Shown: one piece after another, positions 3-51,052 of the stretch
How positions within the stretch are numbered: position 1 is the stretch's first letter
How the letters are laid out: each line of letters begins with the position of its first letter
NCBI GenBank assembly: GCA_012728015.1
Contig: JAAYFY010000032.1
Span: 1 to 51,052 of the forward strand
DNA: 51,052 nt
Direction of reading: 5' to 3'
Source of the DNA: Clostridiaceae bacterium
GTDB lineage: Bacteria > Bacillota > Clostridia > DSM-8532
Position numbers and translations under genes: made by a program
Notes under the pieces: model-generated
The model's database searches: none
What the model saw: the letters and a program-made list of their open reading frames with translations, nothing else
Told to the model about the DNA's origin: nothing

Positions 3-1496
3 GAGTTTTCCATGAAGCCCACCCTTGATGAAAACGGGCGGCTTGTGCCGAGGGAGGACTACCGCATTTCCACAATGAACTGCGGCGAAGAAGATTTTGC
101 AATCGCCTGTATGCGCTCCAATCTGCGCTATGGCAAGAATCAGAAAAAGGAAGATGTAAAGAGCCACCACTATATCATTTCCTTTGACCCGAGGGACGGG
201 ACGGACAACGGCTTGACCGTTGACCGGGCGCAGGAACTTGGCGAAAAGTTTTGCCGGGAGCAGTTTCCCGGTCATCAGGCCATCGTCTGCACCCACCCGG
301 ACGGGCATAACCACAGCGGCAATATCCATGTGCATATCGTCATTAACAGCCTGCGAATTGAGGAAGTGCCGTTGCTGCCCTACATGGACAGACCGGCAGA
401 CACAAGAGCCGGGTGCAAGCACCGCTGCACGGACGCGGCGATGGAATATTTCAAGTCCGAGGTCATGGAGCTGTGCCACAATGCCGGGCTTTACCAGATC
501 GACCTTCTGAACGGCAGCGCAAACCGCATCACCGAGCGCGAGTATTGGGCGAGAAAAAAGGGACAGCTTGCCATTGACCGGGAGAACGAAAAACGGCTGG
601 AGAACCGCGAGCCGCTGATACACACAAAGTTTGAAACCGACAAGGAGAAGCTGCGGCAGACTATCCGAGCCGCTCTGTCCTCTGCTGTTTCCTTTGATGA
701 TTTTGCCGGGAAGCTGCTGCAACAGGGCGTGACCATCCGTGAGAGCCGGGGACGGCTTTCCTATCTCACCCCCGACCGCACGAAGCCCATCACGGCGCGG
801 AAGCTGGGGGACGATTTTGACCGCACCGCCGTTCTTGCCGCTTTGGAGCAAAACGCCTATCGTTCCATTCCGCAAACCGTTACCCCGAAGCAGGGGGCTG
901 GTTTTCCCACAGCAGTCGGGCGCATGGTGGATATTGAAGCCAAGAGAGCCGAGGGCAAGGGTATCGGATATGAGAAGTGGGCGAAGGTTTACAACCTCAA
1001 GCAGATGGCGGCCACCGTTGCCGCTATGGAGCAATACGGCTATTCCCCGGAGGGACTGGACGAAGCCCTTGTATCTGCCAATGCGGACTTGCAGAGTATC
1101 GCCGCCGAGCTGAAAGCCGCAGAAGCCGCTTTGCGGGAGAAGAAGGACTTGCAGAAGCAGGTGCTTGCGTATTCCAAAACAAGAAATGTGAGGCAAGGGC
1201 TGAAAGCGCAGAAAACCGACAAAGCCCGAAAAGTCTACCGGGAGCGGCACGAAAGCGATTTTATCATAGCGGACGCAGCCGCCCGGTATTTCCGGGAGCA
1301 TGGCATAAAGAAGCCGCCTGCCTACAAAGCCCTGCAAGCCGAGATTGAGCGGCTAACCGCCGGGAAGAACGCCCGTTACAACGGTTACCGGACGAAAAAA
1401 GAGCGTGTACGGGAATTGCAGACGATGAAAAGCAATCTTTCACAAATGCGCTGCGGTGAACCGGGCCGACAGAAAAAGCAGGAGCAGGAGCGTTAA
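3..1496 (+). CDS. Relaxase/mobilization nuclease (5' truncated by window edge)
   Basis: Nicks and covalently holds one DNA strand at the element's origin of transfer so that it can be mobilized. The histidine-rich metal site is clear at about residues 93-110 counted from the first internal ATG: HPDGHNHSGNIHVHIV, the MobA/VirD2-type HxH signature. A basic, coiled C-terminal half follows. The frame is open to the left edge. Relatives have an N-terminal segment of several tens of residues with the catalytic Tyr before this point, so the ATG at 12 is probably internal and the gene starts outside the window. It is followed by about 180 bases without a convincing gene. Confidence 0.85.
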   Translation, partial: EFSMKPTLDENGRLVPREDYRISTMNCGEEDFAIACMRSNLRYGKNQKKEDVKSHHYIISFDPRDGTDNGLTVDRAQELGEKFCREQFPGHQAIVCTHPDGHNHSGNIHVHIVINSLRIEEVPLLPYMDRPADTRAGCKHRCTDAAMEYFKSEVMELCHNAGLYQIDLLNGSANRITEREYWARKKGQLAIDRENEKRLENREPLIHTKFETDKEKLRQTIRAALSSAVSFDDFAGKLLQQGVTIRESRGRLSYLTPDRTKPITARKLGDDFDRTAVLAALEQNAYRSIPQTVTPKQGAGFPTAVGRMVDIEAKRAEGKGIGYEKWAKVYNLKQMAATVAAMEQYGYSPEGLDEALVSANADLQSIAAELKAAEAALREKKDLQKQVLAYSKTRNVRQGLKAQKTDKARKVYRERHESDFIIADAAARYFREHGIKKPPAYKALQAEIERLTAGKNARYNGYRTKKERVRELQTMKSNLSQMRCGEPGRQKKQEQER

Positions 1497-1679
1497 AGCC
1501 GCCCCGAAACGATACCGAGACCGTACATTTTCGAGGGTGTACCCTTATCCCTATCCAGCAATACCGCCCACCAAAGAACGGGGCATACAGGGCAAAAAAT
1601 CCCCGAAAATGATACCGGGAGGATACAGTTTTCCCACCCTGTCCGTCACGCCGACTGAAACGGCAGAAAGGAGAGAAAA

Positions 1680-1874
1680 ATGCCGCGCATGAGCAACAAA
1701 CGGCGGTTTGAATGGAGCTTTTTCCTCAACCACCGAAACCGTATCACCTATAACGACCTTTGCCGGGGCTGCACCCGCGATTGCAAGCAGAGCTTCCGAG
1801 CCATTATCATACTCTGCCCCCGGTATTACTCCAAGAGACGGAAACCGCAGGAGGATACCGCCCATGGCAGATAA
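1680..1874 (+). CDS. Small Cys-rich element protein, function unknown
   Basis: A 64-residue basic protein with a CxxCxxxC cluster and a further Cys (CRGCTRDC then LCPRY), suggesting metal binding. A strong ribosome site, AAGGAGAG, ends five bases before the ATG, and the 3' end overlaps the replisome organizer start at 1864, so it looks translationally coupled. Similar short proteins occur at this place in related clostridial elements as far as I recall. The alternative long frame starting at 1708 through the same DNA has no ribosome site and is rejected as a start for the next gene. Confidence 0.65.
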   Translation: MPRMSNKRRFEWSFFLNHRNRITYNDLCRGCTRDCKQSFRAIIILCPRYYSKRRKPQEDTAHGR

Positions 1875-2607
1875 GCGCAAATATTACTATCTCAAGCTGA
1901 AGGAAAGCTATTTTGATGATGACGCCATCGTGCTGTTGGAGAGTATGCCGGACGGTATCCTCTATTCCAATATCCTTTTGAAGCTGTACTTAAAATCGCT
2001 GAAAAACGGCGGTAAATTGCAGCTTGACGAGCATATCCCCTACACGGCGCAGATGATAGCGACGCTGACCCGCCAGCAAATAGGAACAGTTGAGAGGGCT
2101 TTGGAGATTTTTCGGCAGTTGGGGCTTGTGGAGCAGCTTGACAGCGGGGCTTTCTATATGACCGACATTGAGCTGATGATAGGACAGTCCTCTACCGAAG
2201 CCGAGCGAAAACGGGCGGCAAGACTGGAAAACAGGGCTTTGGCGCAGTCACGGACAAATGGCGGACATTTGTCCGACATTTGTCCACCAGAGATAGAGAT
2301 AGAGAAAGAGATAGATATAGAGATAGAAAAAGAGGGAGAGAGAAAGACGGGACAAGCCCCCGCCCGCTGCCACGGCAGATATGAAAATGTACTGCTTTCA
2401 AATACGGAGCTTTCCGAGCTGCAAGCAGAGCTGCCCGACAAATGGGAGTTTTATATCGACCGTCTTTCCGGCTATATCGCATCCACCGGGAAGAAATACC
2501 AAAACCACGCCGCCACCATACGCAGATGGGCAGCAGCCGATACCGCCGGGTGCGCCCCGAAACAGGGCATACCCGATTACACCTATAAGGAGGGACAGAG
2601 CCTATGA
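1864..2607 (+). CDS. Phage replisome organizer-like replication protein
   Basis: Probably loads the replication machinery at the element's origin together with the next gene, a DnaC-like ATPase. The N-terminal 110 residues (starting MADKRKYYYLKL) match the phage replisome organizer N-terminal domain, a winged-helix fold. A charged low-complexity EIEIEKE stretch follows, encoded by GAGATA-type repeats, and then a separate C-terminal domain of about 95 residues. I chose ATG 1864 because AGGAGG lies nine bases upstream and the homologous domain begins there; the open frame extends upstream to 1708 but overlaps the small Cys-rich gene. The stop overlaps the next start (ATGA). Confidence 0.8.
   Translation: MADKRKYYYLKLKESYFDDDAIVLLESMPDGILYSNILLKLYLKSLKNGGKLQLDEHIPYTAQMIATLTRQQIGTVERALEIFRQLGLVEQLDSGAFYMTDIELMIGQSSTEAERKRAARLENRALAQSRTNGGHLSDICPPEIEIEKEIDIEIEKEGERKTGQAPARCHGRYENVLLSNTELSELQAELPDKWEFYIDRLSGYIASTGKKYQNHAATIRRWAAADTAGCAPKQGIPDYTYKEGQSL
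2288..2347 (+). repeat. GAGATA-type short tandem repeat inside the replisome organizer gene
   Basis: Degenerate six-base units GAGATA, GAGAAA and GATATA run for about 60 bases and code for alternating Glu/Ile/Lys residues in the linker between two domains. Such units can change number by slippage; all units here keep the frame. Confidence 0.7.
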
Positions 2608-3488
2608 CGAATGATTTTGAAAAGGTTTTCGATGCCGCAGCCGAGACGCAGGACTACACGGGCGGGGACGGGCTTTTGTACTGCGGCAGTTGCCGCACGC
2701 CCAAGCAGTTCCGCATGGACAAGCCGCCCATGGAAGGCAGGCTGCTTCCCCGCCGTTGTCAATGCGAACAGGCTCAATACGATAAGGAGGAAGCGGAGAG
2801 AAAGCGCAGGAAGCACCTTCAAGCCGTAGAGGAATTGAAGCGTCGGGGCTTTACCGACAGCAAAATGCGGGAATGGACGTTTGCCAACGACAACGGCAAA
2901 TGCCCGCAGATGGAGCTTGCACACTTCTATGCGGAGCATTGGGAAACCATGCGTGAGGAAAACATCGGCTATCTACTCTGGGGTAAGGTCGGCACGGGGA
3001 AAAGCTATTTTGCCGGGTGCATCGCCAATGCCCTCATGGAGCAGGAAGTCCCCGTCCGCATGACGAACTTCTCAGCCATTTTGAATGACCTGACTGCCAG
3101 CTTTGAGGGGCGCAACGAGTATATCGAGCGCCTTTGCCGCTTCTCCCTGCTTATTATCGACGATTTCGGCATGGAACGCGGCACGGAGTACGGCTTGGAG
3201 CAGGTTTACAACGTGATCGACAGCCGATACCGCAGCGGCAAGCCCCTAATCGTTACCACCAATCTGACATTGGACAGCCTGCAAAACCCGCAGGACACCG
3301 CCCACGCCCGGATATATGACCGATTGCTGGAAATGTGCGCCCCTATCCTCTTTACGGGCGAGAATTTCCGCAAGCAGACCGCAACGGAGAAGCTGGACAG
3401 GCTGAAAGGTATGCTGGCAGAGCAGAAAAAAGGAATAACGGTAGCCGCTGCCGATATTGCCGGGAAGGGAGAAACAGCCCATGACTGA
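2604..3488 (+). CDS. DnaC/IstB-like AAA+ ATPase (helicase loader type)
   Basis: Predicted helicase loader acting with the replisome organizer encoded just upstream (ATGA overlap). Residues 25-55 contain CGSC and RCQC, a likely zinc site. The AAA+ core has Walker A GKVGTGKS at about residue 127 and Walker B LLIIDDFG at about 182, followed by a TTNL sensor-type strand near 215. Its length of 294 residues fits element-borne DnaC proteins. The IstB transposition helper has a similar core, but no IS transposase is present and the neighbours are replication genes. Confidence 0.85.
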   Translation: MTNDFEKVFDAAAETQDYTGGDGLLYCGSCRTPKQFRMDKPPMEGRLLPRRCQCEQAQYDKEEAERKRRKHLQAVEELKRRGFTDSKMREWTFANDNGKCPQMELAHFYAEHWETMREENIGYLLWGKVGTGKSYFAGCIANALMEQEVPVRMTNFSAILNDLTASFEGRNEYIERLCRFSLLIIDDFGMERGTEYGLEQVYNVIDSRYRSGKPLIVTTNLTLDSLQNPQDTAHARIYDRLLEMCAPILFTGENFRKQTATEKLDRLKGMLAEQKKGITVAAADIAGKGETAHD

Positions 3489-3831
3489 GAAGAAAAGAAA
3501 ACGCAGCAGACCGAAGCTGCCCACACCCATCACCGAGGACTATGCTTCCAGTCGCAGACAGGCGGTGAACGCCATGTATATGTACGAGGCGGTTGATTTA
3601 ATAAAGGCAGCCGCCGCCGAAATCCCAAACGGCGATGCGCTGTGGTTTGCCGATGACAGGACGCGCACCGCCGCTTCAAAGAACGGCGTACTGGAGCAGA
3701 TAGGCCGTATGCGGGTGCAGGACGGCTTCCCTGACGGGGACTGCATCTATATCGCCGACCTTGCCGCCCGCGCCGTGGATATGCTGCGGCGAATGGCGGC
3801 TTACGAAACGAAAGGAGCAGCGAATGACTGA
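3481..3831 (+). CDS. Conserved element protein, function unknown
   Basis: A 116-residue protein with a basic N-terminus (MTEKKRKRSRP). No catalytic motif is visible to me. ATG 3481 was chosen because AAGGGAG lies about nine bases upstream and because it overlaps the preceding gene by eight bases; an upstream ATG at 3457 has no ribosome site. Its stop overlaps the tnpW start. Similar proteins sit between the DnaC-like gene and tnpW in related elements, so it is probably part of the element's core. Confidence 0.65.
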   Translation: MTEKKRKRSRPKLPTPITEDYASSRRQAVNAMYMYEAVDLIKAAAAEIPNGDALWFADDRTRTAASKNGVLEQIGRMRVQDGFPDGDCIYIADLAARAVDMLRRMAAYETKGAAND

Positions 3832-4021
3832 AAACCCGCGCATGAACGCAAAAGAGGAAGCCCGCCGCCCGGACTGCGTGACAGAGGTACGCATGGGCAA
3901 CACCGTACTCGTGGTGTCCGGCTACTTCAAGAAGGACGCTGCCGCCACCGCAGCCGACAAGATGATGAAGGTGCTGGAAGCGGAGGCCGCCGCCAATACC
4001 CGCACCGCCTCCGCTTCGTGA
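3824..4021 (+). CDS. tnpW: Transposon-encoded TnpW family protein
   Basis: A 65-residue protein whose core, RPDCVTEVRMGNTVLVVSGY, followed by a predicted helix with DKMMKVLEAE, is typical of TnpW, the small protein encoded just before the recombinase in Tn4451-like elements. Its biochemical role is not known to me. AAGGAG lies six bases before ATG 3824; the longer frame from 3761 lies inside the preceding gene. It overlaps that gene's stop (ATGACTGA), which indicates coupled translation. Confidence 0.8.
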   Translation: MTENPRMNAKEEARRPDCVTEVRMGNTVLVVSGYFKKDAAATAADKMMKVLEAEAAANTRTASAS

Positions 4022-4159
4022 TAAGCCCGGCTGTAAAAATCGTCGTTTTGACGGGCGATAAAGCAGCAAATTTTGCTTTTACCCGCTATACAGACAGCCG
4101 CCTCCTGTGGTATGATGTTCATACGGAATAGCGGGGCGGCTGTCGGAAATGGAGGATTT

Positions 4160-5773
4160 ATGTTAAGACAAGCCACCCAAAAGACCCCTATCACAGCCCT
4201 TTACGCAAGATTGAGCAAGGACGATGAACAGCAAGGCGAGAGCCTGTCCATTGAGAACCAAAAACGCATCCTTGAAACCTACGCACGGGATAATGGATTT
4301 TTGAACTGCCGCTTTTTCGTGGACGACGGCTGGAGCGGCGCGAATTTCCAAAGACCCGGCTTCATGGAGATGATGGACTGCGTGGAAAACGGCGAGGTCA
4401 AGTGCGTGATTACCAAAGACCTGTCGAGAATGGGCAGAAACTACTTGCAGGTCGGAATGTTCACCGAGATCACCTTCCCCAAGAAGGGCGTGCGCTTCAT
4501 CGCCATCAACGACGGCGTGGACAGCGCACAGGGCGACAACGACTTAACGCCGCTGAAAAATCTTTTCAACGAATGGATGGTGAGAGATACGAGCAGGAAA
4601 ATCAAGGCAGTTTTCAGAAGCAAGGGCATGAGCGGAAAGCCCATTACAAGCCAGCCCGTCTACGGCTACCTCAAGGGAGAGGACGGACGCTTTGTCATCG
4701 ACGAGGAAGCCGCCCCCGTGGTACGACAGATATACAGCCTGTGCCTTGCGGGGAACGGCCCCACCAAGATCGCCCGCGTCCTCACCGAGCAGGAGATCCC
4801 CACGCCGGGGACGCTGGAATACCGCAGGACGGGTAGCACCCGCCGCTACTACCCCGATTACCCGTACAAATGGGCGACCAACACGATTGTCCATATCCTT
4901 GAACGCAAGGAGTATTTAGGGCATACGGTGAACTTCAAGACCGAGAAAATCTCTTACAAGGTGAAGTCCAGCGTAGAAAACCCGGAGGAAAAGCAAGCGG
5001 TATTCGAGAACACCCACGAGCCTATCATCGACCCTGCCACATGGGAGCGCGTGCAGGAGCTTCGCAAGCAGCGCAAACGCCCCAACCGCTATGATGAAGT
5101 GGGGCTGTTCTCCGGCATATTGTTCTGCGCCGACTGCGGCAGCGTCCTTTACCAGCAGCGGTATGAGAACAAGACCCGCAAGCAGGACTGCTACATCTGC
5201 GGCAACTACAAACGGCGTGTCAAGAGCTGCACGGCGCATTTTATCCGCACCGACCTTCTGACAGCGGGCGTGACGGCGAATCTCCAAAAGATCACCGCCT
5301 ACGCCGCCAAGCACGAAAAGCAGTTTATGAAGCTGCTGATCGAGCAGAACGAGGACGGCGGCAAGCGCAGAAACGCAGCCCGGAAAAAGGAACTGGACGC
5401 AGCCGAGAAGCGCATAGCCGAGTTATCCGCCATCTACAAGCGGCTGTATGAGGACAGCGTGACCGGGCGCATCTCCGATGAAAGGTTTGCGGAGCTGTCT
5501 GCCGACTATGAAGCCGAGCAGCGGCAGCTTAAAGAGAGAGCCGCCGAACTGCAAAGGGAGCTTTCCAAGGCGCAGGAGGCTACGGTCAGCGCCGGGAAGT
5601 TTATGAACATCGTCCGCAAATACACCAGCTTTGAGGAGCTGACACCCACCCTGCTGCGGGAGTTTATTGAGAAAATCGTCGTGCATGAGTGCAGCTATGA
5701 CGAGAACAAAAACCGCAGACAGGAAATCGAGATATACTATTCTTTCGTCGGCAAGGTAGACTTGCCCGAATAA
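4160..5773 (+). CDS. Large serine recombinase (TnpX-like), element integrase/excisionase
   Basis: Catalyses excision and insertion of the element. The N-terminal resolvase domain has YARLSKDDEQ with the likely nucleophile Ser19 and the usual Arg17, and SIENQ downstream. A recombinase domain follows at about 160-290. A zinc ribbon with CADC and CYIC starts near residue 322, then a long coiled coil (about 400-480) and a C-terminal DUF4368-like region. The total of 537 residues is normal for the family. GGAGG lies four bases before ATG 4160; the frame is open to 4073 but that extension lacks a ribosome site. About 140 bases separate it from tnpW. The gene is intact, so the element may still move. 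Confidence 0.9.
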   Translation: MLRQATQKTPITALYARLSKDDEQQGESLSIENQKRILETYARDNGFLNCRFFVDDGWSGANFQRPGFMEMMDCVENGEVKCVITKDLSRMGRNYLQVGMFTEITFPKKGVRFIAINDGVDSAQGDNDLTPLKNLFNEWMVRDTSRKIKAVFRSKGMSGKPITSQPVYGYLKGEDGRFVIDEEAAPVVRQIYSLCLAGNGPTKIARVLTEQEIPTPGTLEYRRTGSTRRYYPDYPYKWATNTIVHILERKEYLGHTVNFKTEKISYKVKSSVENPEEKQAVFENTHEPIIDPATWERVQELRKQRKRPNRYDEVGLFSGILFCADCGSVLYQQRYENKTRKQDCYICGNYKRRVKSCTAHFIRTDLLTAGVTANLQKITAYAAKHEKQFMKLLIEQNEDGGKRRNAARKKELDAAEKRIAELSAIYKRLYEDSVTGRISDERFAELSADYEAEQRQLKERAAELQRELSKAQEATVSAGKFMNIVRKYTSFEELTPTLLREFIEKIVVHECSYDENKNRRQEIEIYYSFVGKVDLPE

Positions 5774-49871: not shown

Positions 49872-50729
49872 ATGGAATTGAGCAAAAAGGACAGATTGAT
49901 GCTGATAAACCAATACAGGATCCTTTCTATACTGAATCCTGACGGAGCAAGCAGCTACAATATCCGTATAAAGATGCTCGAGGAAGGCTATTCCCTGCAT
50001 TATGACGAAATGGTCAACTGGATTAACGACGGGATGAGCAGGGAGGAGTGCCAGGAGATAATTGATATCCTGGAAATGTACCGATGCCTGTGGCACTCTT
50101 TCAAAAAACTCAGGGACAAAGGAAGCATCAAGAAGAAACATGTCAGGTTTCCAGGATTTGATGCCAAGGATGAGGAAAAGCAGCTCAACTATGCCGAATA
50201 TGTTATGTACAGCCTGAACAGGTATAAGGAATTCCACCAGAGAAGAAGGCTCCCCAATCACGACAGCTACAAGCCAATGCTTCGCCATTACAGAGCCATG
50301 CTGAGCGTTTGGAACAGCCTGGGCAACAGGAGGCTTTTAAGCGGGGAGGAAATTATCCAGATCCTCAATGGGGAGATGATTGTTCCGGATGTTGACGATG
50401 ATGTATATGTGCGAATGACTGTCCCTGTTCAGCATGAAGGGCTGCCCATAGCCGAAGATTTTTCTGAAGATAAAGAAGATCTTGATGATCATGATGCGTA
50501 CGATCTTGCCGAAGATGAAGAGGAAGATATGTATGATGAACAGGATGCGGACGAGGAGGAAGATGAAGGTATAAGGGAAGAAGAGGAAGCAGAGGCGGCT
50601 AGGGAGGATTCACGGGTAGCCGGTATAGATGCCGGGAAGGAAGAGGCATCCGGAGGCGAGGAAGCCGCCGCGATCCATGATGGCTATGAAATCGATGAAG
50701 CAGACGAACCTGAAGAAGAGGAATTATGA
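49872..50729 (+). CDS. YfbU-domain protein with long acidic C-terminal tail
   Basis: Residues 1-165 match YfbU (UPF0304) along the whole domain: MELSKKDRLMLINQYRIL, EECQEIIDILEMYRCLW and the final LSGEEIIQILNG. YfbU is of unknown function. Here a further 115 residues follow; the last 90 are roughly half Asp and Glu with hardly any hydrophobic residues, so disordered. GCGGAGG precedes ATG 49872 by about seven bases. A TATAAT lies at 49831-49836 without a clear -35. The following terminator belongs to the opposite strand. Confidence 0.82.
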   Translation: MELSKKDRLMLINQYRILSILNPDGASSYNIRIKMLEEGYSLHYDEMVNWINDGMSREECQEIIDILEMYRCLWHSFKKLRDKGSIKKKHVRFPGFDAKDEEKQLNYAEYVMYSLNRYKEFHQRRRLPNHDSYKPMLRHYRAMLSVWNSLGNRRLLSGEEIIQILNGEMIVPDVDDDVYVRMTVPVQHEGLPIAEDFSEDKEDLDDHDAYDLAEDEEEDMYDEQDADEEEDEGIREEEEAEAAREDSRVAGIDAGKEEASGGEEAAAIHDGYEIDEADEPEEEEL

Positions 50730-50784
50730 GAACATATATTTTTTGTGCATGACTTCACGGCCGATTTCCATGCAGGGAAAAATG

Positions 50785-50826
50785 AATAAAAAAACAAGCG
50801 GAATTCAGAACACTGAAATCCGCTTA
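50785..50826 (-). terminator. Terminator downstream of the tRNA-Pro 3' half
   Basis: Minus strand AAGCGGA-T-TTCAG, loop TGTT, CTGAA-T-TCCGCTT, then GTTTTTTT. It follows the CCA end by about eight bases and marks the original tRNA transcription unit. Confidence 0.85.
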
Positions 50827-50832
50827 TTTACT

Positions 50833-50877
50833 TGGTCGGAGTGACTGGACTTGAACCAGCGACCTCTTGCACCCCAA
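50833..50877 (-). other. tRNA-Pro(GGG) 3' half: probable attachment site of a second mobile element
   Basis: On the minus strand the sequence from the anticodon loop (TTGGGGT, anticodon GGG) runs through the 3' anticodon strand GCAAG, variable AGGTC, T-arm GCTGG-TTCAAGT-CCAGT, acceptor CACTCCG, A and CCA. The 5' half is absent: neither the expected CTTGC before the loop nor CGGAGTG further on is found up to the window end. This is what integration into a tRNA gene leaves behind. The intact tRNA should be at the far end of the element, right of the window. Confidence 0.75.
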
Positions 50878-51052
50878 TTTTGCAGCCTATATGGCATTGT
50901 GTGGAATCAAGAGGAACCGATTCAGAAAATATAGGTTTAAAACGGCATTTGCGTTCCATTTTATTACATTTCAAAATATCTAATCTACCATGAATGTAAA
51001 CCGTACTGCTGTATTTATTGCTGTATGAAAACGACTGATGTTTTCTACCCTG
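50878..51052. mobile_element. Edge of a probable integrated element (continues beyond the window)
   Basis: DNA after the tRNA half is AT-richer than the neighbouring genes and has no gene with a start in the window. It carries a direct repeat TGCTGTAT at 51007-51014 and 51019-51026, spaced like integrase arm sites. No integrase is visible in this short stretch. Confidence 0.45.
51007..51026. repeat. Direct repeat TGCTGTAT x2 near the element edge
   Basis: Two identical 8-base copies, 12 bases apart start to start, 130 bases from the tRNA att site. Possible arm-type binding sites of a tyrosine integrase (inference). Confidence 0.4.

Follow-up and report, generated by a model that had tools for sequence, protein, structure and literature searches.

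A displaced tRNA-Pro(GGG) half at a contig end very probably marks the insertion site of an integrative element whose ends recur in several Clostridia

Near the right end of a contig from a Clostridiaceae bacterium a tRNA-Pro gene breaks off at its anticodon loop, which raises the question of what interrupted the gene and where its other half is to be found. The window, meaning the whole stretch of DNA analysed, is one entire contig of 51,052 bp (C77), and the genome to which it belongs (G000) comprises 2.19 Mb in 97 contigs. A previous reading of the letters alone (the sequence-only reading) had recognised at this site the 3' half of tRNA-Pro(GGG), with its CCA and its own terminator, and had proposed that a mobile element starts at position 50878. 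The evidence presented here leads to the view that the half tRNA is very probably the displaced attachment site of an integrative element (a prophage, an ICE or an island) inserted at the anticodon loop, presumably by a tyrosine integrase. The features concerned are the following, in coordinates of the window:

49872 to 50729, plus strand: gene for a YfbU-domain protein (PF03887, E 3e-44), native left neighbour of tRNA-Pro(GGG) in the genus
50792 to 50829, minus strand: terminator-like hairpin of the tRNA-Pro gene, host side (RNA fold of -21 kcal/mol, z -7.4, followed by a U run)
50833 to 50877, minus strand: displaced 3' half of tRNA-Pro(GGG) with CCA, the probable 45-bp attachment-site core (attR), 45/45 identical to the tRNA on contig C31
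50871 to 50877, minus strand: the seven anticodon-loop bases, with the border of identity between the two copies at 50877; putative strand-exchange zone
50878 to 51052, no strand assigned: first 175 bp of the putative integrated element (end A), found again after a half tRNA in genomes G002, G017, G048 and G049, and running off the contig
51007 to 51026, plus strand: TGCTGTAT TTAT TGCTGTAT, candidate integrase sites of the arm type; in G017 a TGCTGTA pair occurs at the other putative end of the element (end B) too

The reverse complement of 50833-50877 corresponds to nucleotides 34-78 of the 78-nt tRNA-Pro(GGG) encoded at positions 46-123 (minus strand) of contig C31 of the same genome, and the tRNA is broken between the 5' strand of the anticodon stem (CTTGC) and the first base of the loop. 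The 33-nt 5' half is absent from the window even when 6 mismatches are allowed, the bases from 50878 onward do not correspond to it, and ARAGORN calls no tRNA at the site. The description of a 3' half with CCA and terminator, whose identity halts at the anticodon loop with the 5' half missing, is thus borne out by the 45/45 match, the z score of the hairpin and the failed search for the other half. The change in base composition that the sequence-only reading had noticed is real, G+C being 35% in 50878-51052 against 51% in the whole window, a value as low as in only 1.1% of 175-bp tiles. It does not mark the border of an element, since the intergenic stretch immediately to the left (50730-50832) is equally poor, with 36%.

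A pattern search across G000 allowing up to 3 mismatches located the same 45 bp, with zero mismatches, in one further place, the intact tRNA-Pro(GGG) at the start of C31. An intact gene sharing the 45 bp, which the sequence-only reading had proposed to look for, therefore exists on a contig separate from C77. The identity of the two copies begins at the CCA, includes the entire anticodon loop and ends at the first base of the loop. A third place, on contig C73 and 81-82% similar, is tRNA-Pro(CGG), and a single tRNA-Pro(GGG) gene was found in the genome. An intact tRNA (C31:46-123, minus strand) and a displaced fragment (50833-50877) in the same orientation are hence both present, and a whole tRNA on the promoter side with a displaced fragment opposite is the signature of tyrosine-integrase insertion into tRNA genes. 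tRNA introns sit at the anticodon loop, and the position of the break might for this reason evoke an intron within which the contig ends; this explanation is scarcely credible, as it is contradicted by the duplication of the 45 bp, given that an intron would produce neither a second 3' half nor a whole tRNA on the other flank.

The two sites lie on different contigs, and it is synteny with a relative (G001) that brings them together. To the right of its tRNA, C31 carries an AbrB-type gene and a dGTPase gene. On the C77 side, the YfbU gene has matches in 5 of the 41 genomes searched, which are all five genomes of the genus, and in none of the 36 others. In three of the five (G001, G003 and G004) an intact tRNA-Pro adjoins YfbU and the site is uninterrupted, that is, empty; in the remaining two (G000 and G002) a half tRNA follows YfbU. 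The relatives with the empty site thus carry there the whole gene and not the half. When the host flanks were joined with the element left out (the flank left of 50877 followed by C31 from base 91), alignments ran across the join in G004 (95% over 136 bp), G003 (93% over 141 bp) and G001 (90% over 175 bp), the conserved tRNA making up 78 bp of each. G001 gives a second alignment of 295 bp at 87%, which covers the upstream region and the start of the AbrB gene, and both alignments together place YfbU, tRNA-Pro and AbrB in one location and order in that genome. Synteny on the AbrB side rests on G001, since nothing further matched in about 1 kb beyond the tRNA in G003 and the G004 contig stops 175 bp beyond it.

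The left contig end has a character of its own. Positions 12-5773 encode a relaxase (PF03432), a phage replisome organiser (PF09681), an IstB-like ATPase and a large serine recombinase of 566 aa with a DUF4368 domain, which adjoins nucleotidyltransferase genes, and this region looks like a mobilizable element. The serine recombinase (4073-5773), the one PF07508 match in G000, could in principle have made the half tRNA its attachment site, a notion that deserves almost no credence in view of the synteny that contradicts it: the two are 45 kb apart with ClpB-like, FtsK/SpoIIIE, RNase Y and YfbU genes in between, and YfbU adjoins tRNA-Pro in the relatives as well.

The DNA beyond the break recurs in other genomes. 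End A follows a half tRNA with identities of 96/96 in G002, 18/18 in G017, 27/27 in G048 and 74/80 in G049, and the host sides of the junction differ among the five genomes. Within the family it is present in 3 of 32 genomes (G000, G002 and G017). The G048 and G049 junctions come from a scan of named genome contigs, which returned four stretches including those of G002 and G017; G049, which appears to be G187 of the class set, would accordingly belong to another family of the class. A search of 391 class genomes with end A matched seven, of which G000, G002 and G187 represent the known junctions, G043, G190 and G388 share 26-28 bp only, and G021 was discarded, its match lying inside a permease-like gene; the 18 bp of G017 are too short for detection in this search. 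The halves of G048 and G049 differ from the G000 half in the T-arm and agree with it in the last 18 bp of the core, a pattern that fits an exchange near the anticodon loop, without amounting to proof of it.

The opposite end is also found elsewhere. The 45 bp of end B in G000 (C31:1-45) are identical at 45/45 positions in contig C166 of G017, where they stand beside a 5' tRNA half that is G017's own and different, and where end B continues for 34 bp more to the end of the contig. Among the 32 family genomes end B occurs in full, besides G000, only in G017, which belongs to another genus; in the 391 class genomes three matched, namely G017, G000 and, over 28 bp, G045. On the basis of the match in C166, end A adjoins the displaced half and end B the intact tRNA in both G000 and G017. 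The element proposed to start at 50878 consequently gains support from an identical junction in other species and from a shared far end, and the occurrence of the same element end in several different bacteria makes it seem that the element moves between species. An intact tRNA-Pro carrying end B is found in 2 of the 5 junction genomes (G000 and G017). No intact tRNA-Pro(GGG) was found in G002 by the family-genome searches with the tRNA and end B, nor in G048 among its three matches, and the intact tRNA-Pro(GGG) of G049, on its contig C114, comes without end B and differs from the G049 half in its T-arm.

These absences of a partner site in G002, G048 and G049 bear on the most serious alternative, namely that the 45-bp repeat led the assembler to glue host DNA to the element of another organism in the metagenome. 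Each of the five junction contigs breaks off after 18-175 bp of the element, and the four named junction records are Clostridiaceae MAGs with series labels (three AS22 and one AS24), which we take to be digester genomes. However, an assembler faced with the same sequence in many hosts is expected to end contigs just inside the element, so that a true multi-host element accounts for such ends equally well. Moreover, the five contigs have their junction at one and the same base, and in two of them, where the T-arm is different, no more of the core than its last 18 bp is shared; end B lies on the contig of the intact tRNA in both G000 and G017, each time with the host's own 5' half. We therefore regard such a chimera as improbable. 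More doubtful still is an old remnant, in which the half tRNA derives from a deletion or is an extra pseudogene with no element now present. It would agree with the lack of element genes tied to the ends in G000, where only an Xer-like protein and the serine recombinase 45 kb off were encountered, but it is opposed by the 96/96 identity of end A in G002, a separate species with a YfbU protein no more than 73% similar, and by the far end, which agrees between C31 and G017.

The two copies of TGCTGTAT in end A (51007-51014 and 51019-51026) had been interpreted in the sequence-only reading as a sign of the element. Markov sequences modelled on the contig end contain some close 8-mer repeat in about 6% of cases, and the pair is accordingly weak on its own. 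The window holds 12 copies of TGCTGTA (8 on the plus and 4 on the minus strand), and 51007-51026 is the only close pair. A TGCTGTA pair is present again at end B (G017:C166:11-28), where at least two copies on that strand in 79 bp have a frequency of 0.00025 under a first-order Markov model. The pairs have the same orientation, with their copies 12 bp (end A, G000) and 11 bp (end B, G017) apart. In G000 the second pair is not visible because C31 begins inside end B, at end-B base 35. Similar words also exist in coding DNA, as in the end-A-like stretch of the permease-like gene of G021. The 20-bp end-B pair is found as well inside a long ORF of an unrelated viral contig (L126), which was taken as a chance match. 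The TGCTGTA pairs are candidates for arm sites of the integrase. Separately, TGTTTTCTAC at end A (51039-51048) reappears in reverse-complement form at end B (G017:C166:26-35), and is a possible inverted repeat of the element ends.

The integrase gene that the sequence-only reading expected near one end was not seen. PF00589 has one match in G000, an Xer-like protein on contig C93 that is most like XerC and falls below the cut-off of that model, and one match in G002. Across the 32 family genomes together with G048 and G049, none of the minority of PF00589 matches looked at singly was tied to a junction, and the DNA at a weak match in contig C12 of G017 showed no evident integrase-like ORF. The two recombinase families searched in G000 yielded no element gene tied to either end, and no contig of the assembly spans the element between C77 and C31. 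The exact junction had no match in the viral contigs, and words from end A and from end B gave no hit either. A distant BLAST search with the junction returned one 35-bp match among phages, restricted to the tRNA part, and no match among plasmids; relatives of the element ends were thus absent from the viral, phage and plasmid collections. A related arrangement is displayed by three IMG/VR contigs (3300044825_001288, 3300035703_000279 and 3300027712_000183), in which a tRNA-Pro 3' half is accompanied on the tRNA-3' side by a PF00589 integrase gene. Their halves are identical at 40 of 45 positions, 26 of the 45 having been fixed by the search pattern. The integrase is about 50-60 bp from the half in two of them, and in the third there is an overlap between the half and the listed ORF. 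Compared by eye and unaligned, their flanks look different from the element, and the stretches read contain no TGCTGTA pair. By analogy with their gene order, the integrase of our element is suggested to lie beyond C31 base 1.

Taken as a mechanism, an element bearing an attP with a copy of the tRNA 3' half would have recombined site-specifically with the tRNA-Pro(GGG) gene acting as attB, strand exchange presumably taking place at the anticodon loop and possibly in the loop itself. The 3' half brought by the element would have completed the tRNA gene on the AbrB side, on C31, and would in this way have kept a whole tRNA-Pro with its native upstream DNA. The native 3' half (50833-50877) would have been displaced to the YfbU side together with its native terminator. 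The two contig ends would then belong to one element, presumably mobile in recent times, running from 50878 to the end of C77, through unassembled DNA, and into C31:1-45.

Insertions of this kind are well documented. Islander tabulates 2083 islands whose sites are anticodon-centred and 3760 that have a 3' fragment (PMC4383910). As in those islands, the tRNA here is regenerated on one side, a 3' fragment is displaced on the other and identity ends at the anticodon loop; unlike them, body and integrase are unassembled and the island cannot be completed. Actinobacteriophage Omega uses tRNA-Leu-CAA with a 44-bp common core, its attP lying across the tRNA 3' half and a functional tRNA being left at attL, and pairs of putative arm-type sites flank the attP cores of such phages (PMC10865867). 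Our locus likewise combines a 3'-half core and a regenerated tRNA, but the tRNA and the hosts are different, and for Omega the phage genome is known (PMC10865867).

Other split copies turned up among the loci looked at, which are a subset of the tRNA and end-B matches. In contig C80 of G010 (L055, 1892-4000) a very similar tRNA-Pro half leads into different DNA, which holds a DUF2513 gene and an IstB-like fragment and probably represents a further element that uses this site. The half at G045:C46:57189-57233 (L091/L023) lies within an ORF that by eye resembles a pilus-assembly ATPase, and is either a remnant or a misassembly. In contig C99 of G041 (L037, 1324-1545) the anticodon stem-loop of tRNA-Pro is interrupted by a run of N flanked by two copies of the same 17 bp, and another insertion in this tRNA-Pro would explain the assembly gap.

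This class of insertion is already known and its mechanism is textbook material; the element itself is a new and apparently promiscuous member. Its precise insertion site is marked by the present locus, and what makes it interesting is that it has spread over several species. A broader picture can be put forward only tentatively, and we would not bet on it: a single recently active element may have spread nearly unchanged between genera of Clostridia in one kind of community, with a diverged form in another family and always at tRNA-Pro, and may constitute a main conduit of gene transfer there. The element also offers a possible explanation for the shared breakpoint of contigs from several genomes and, if recovered, it would show what these bacteria exchange.
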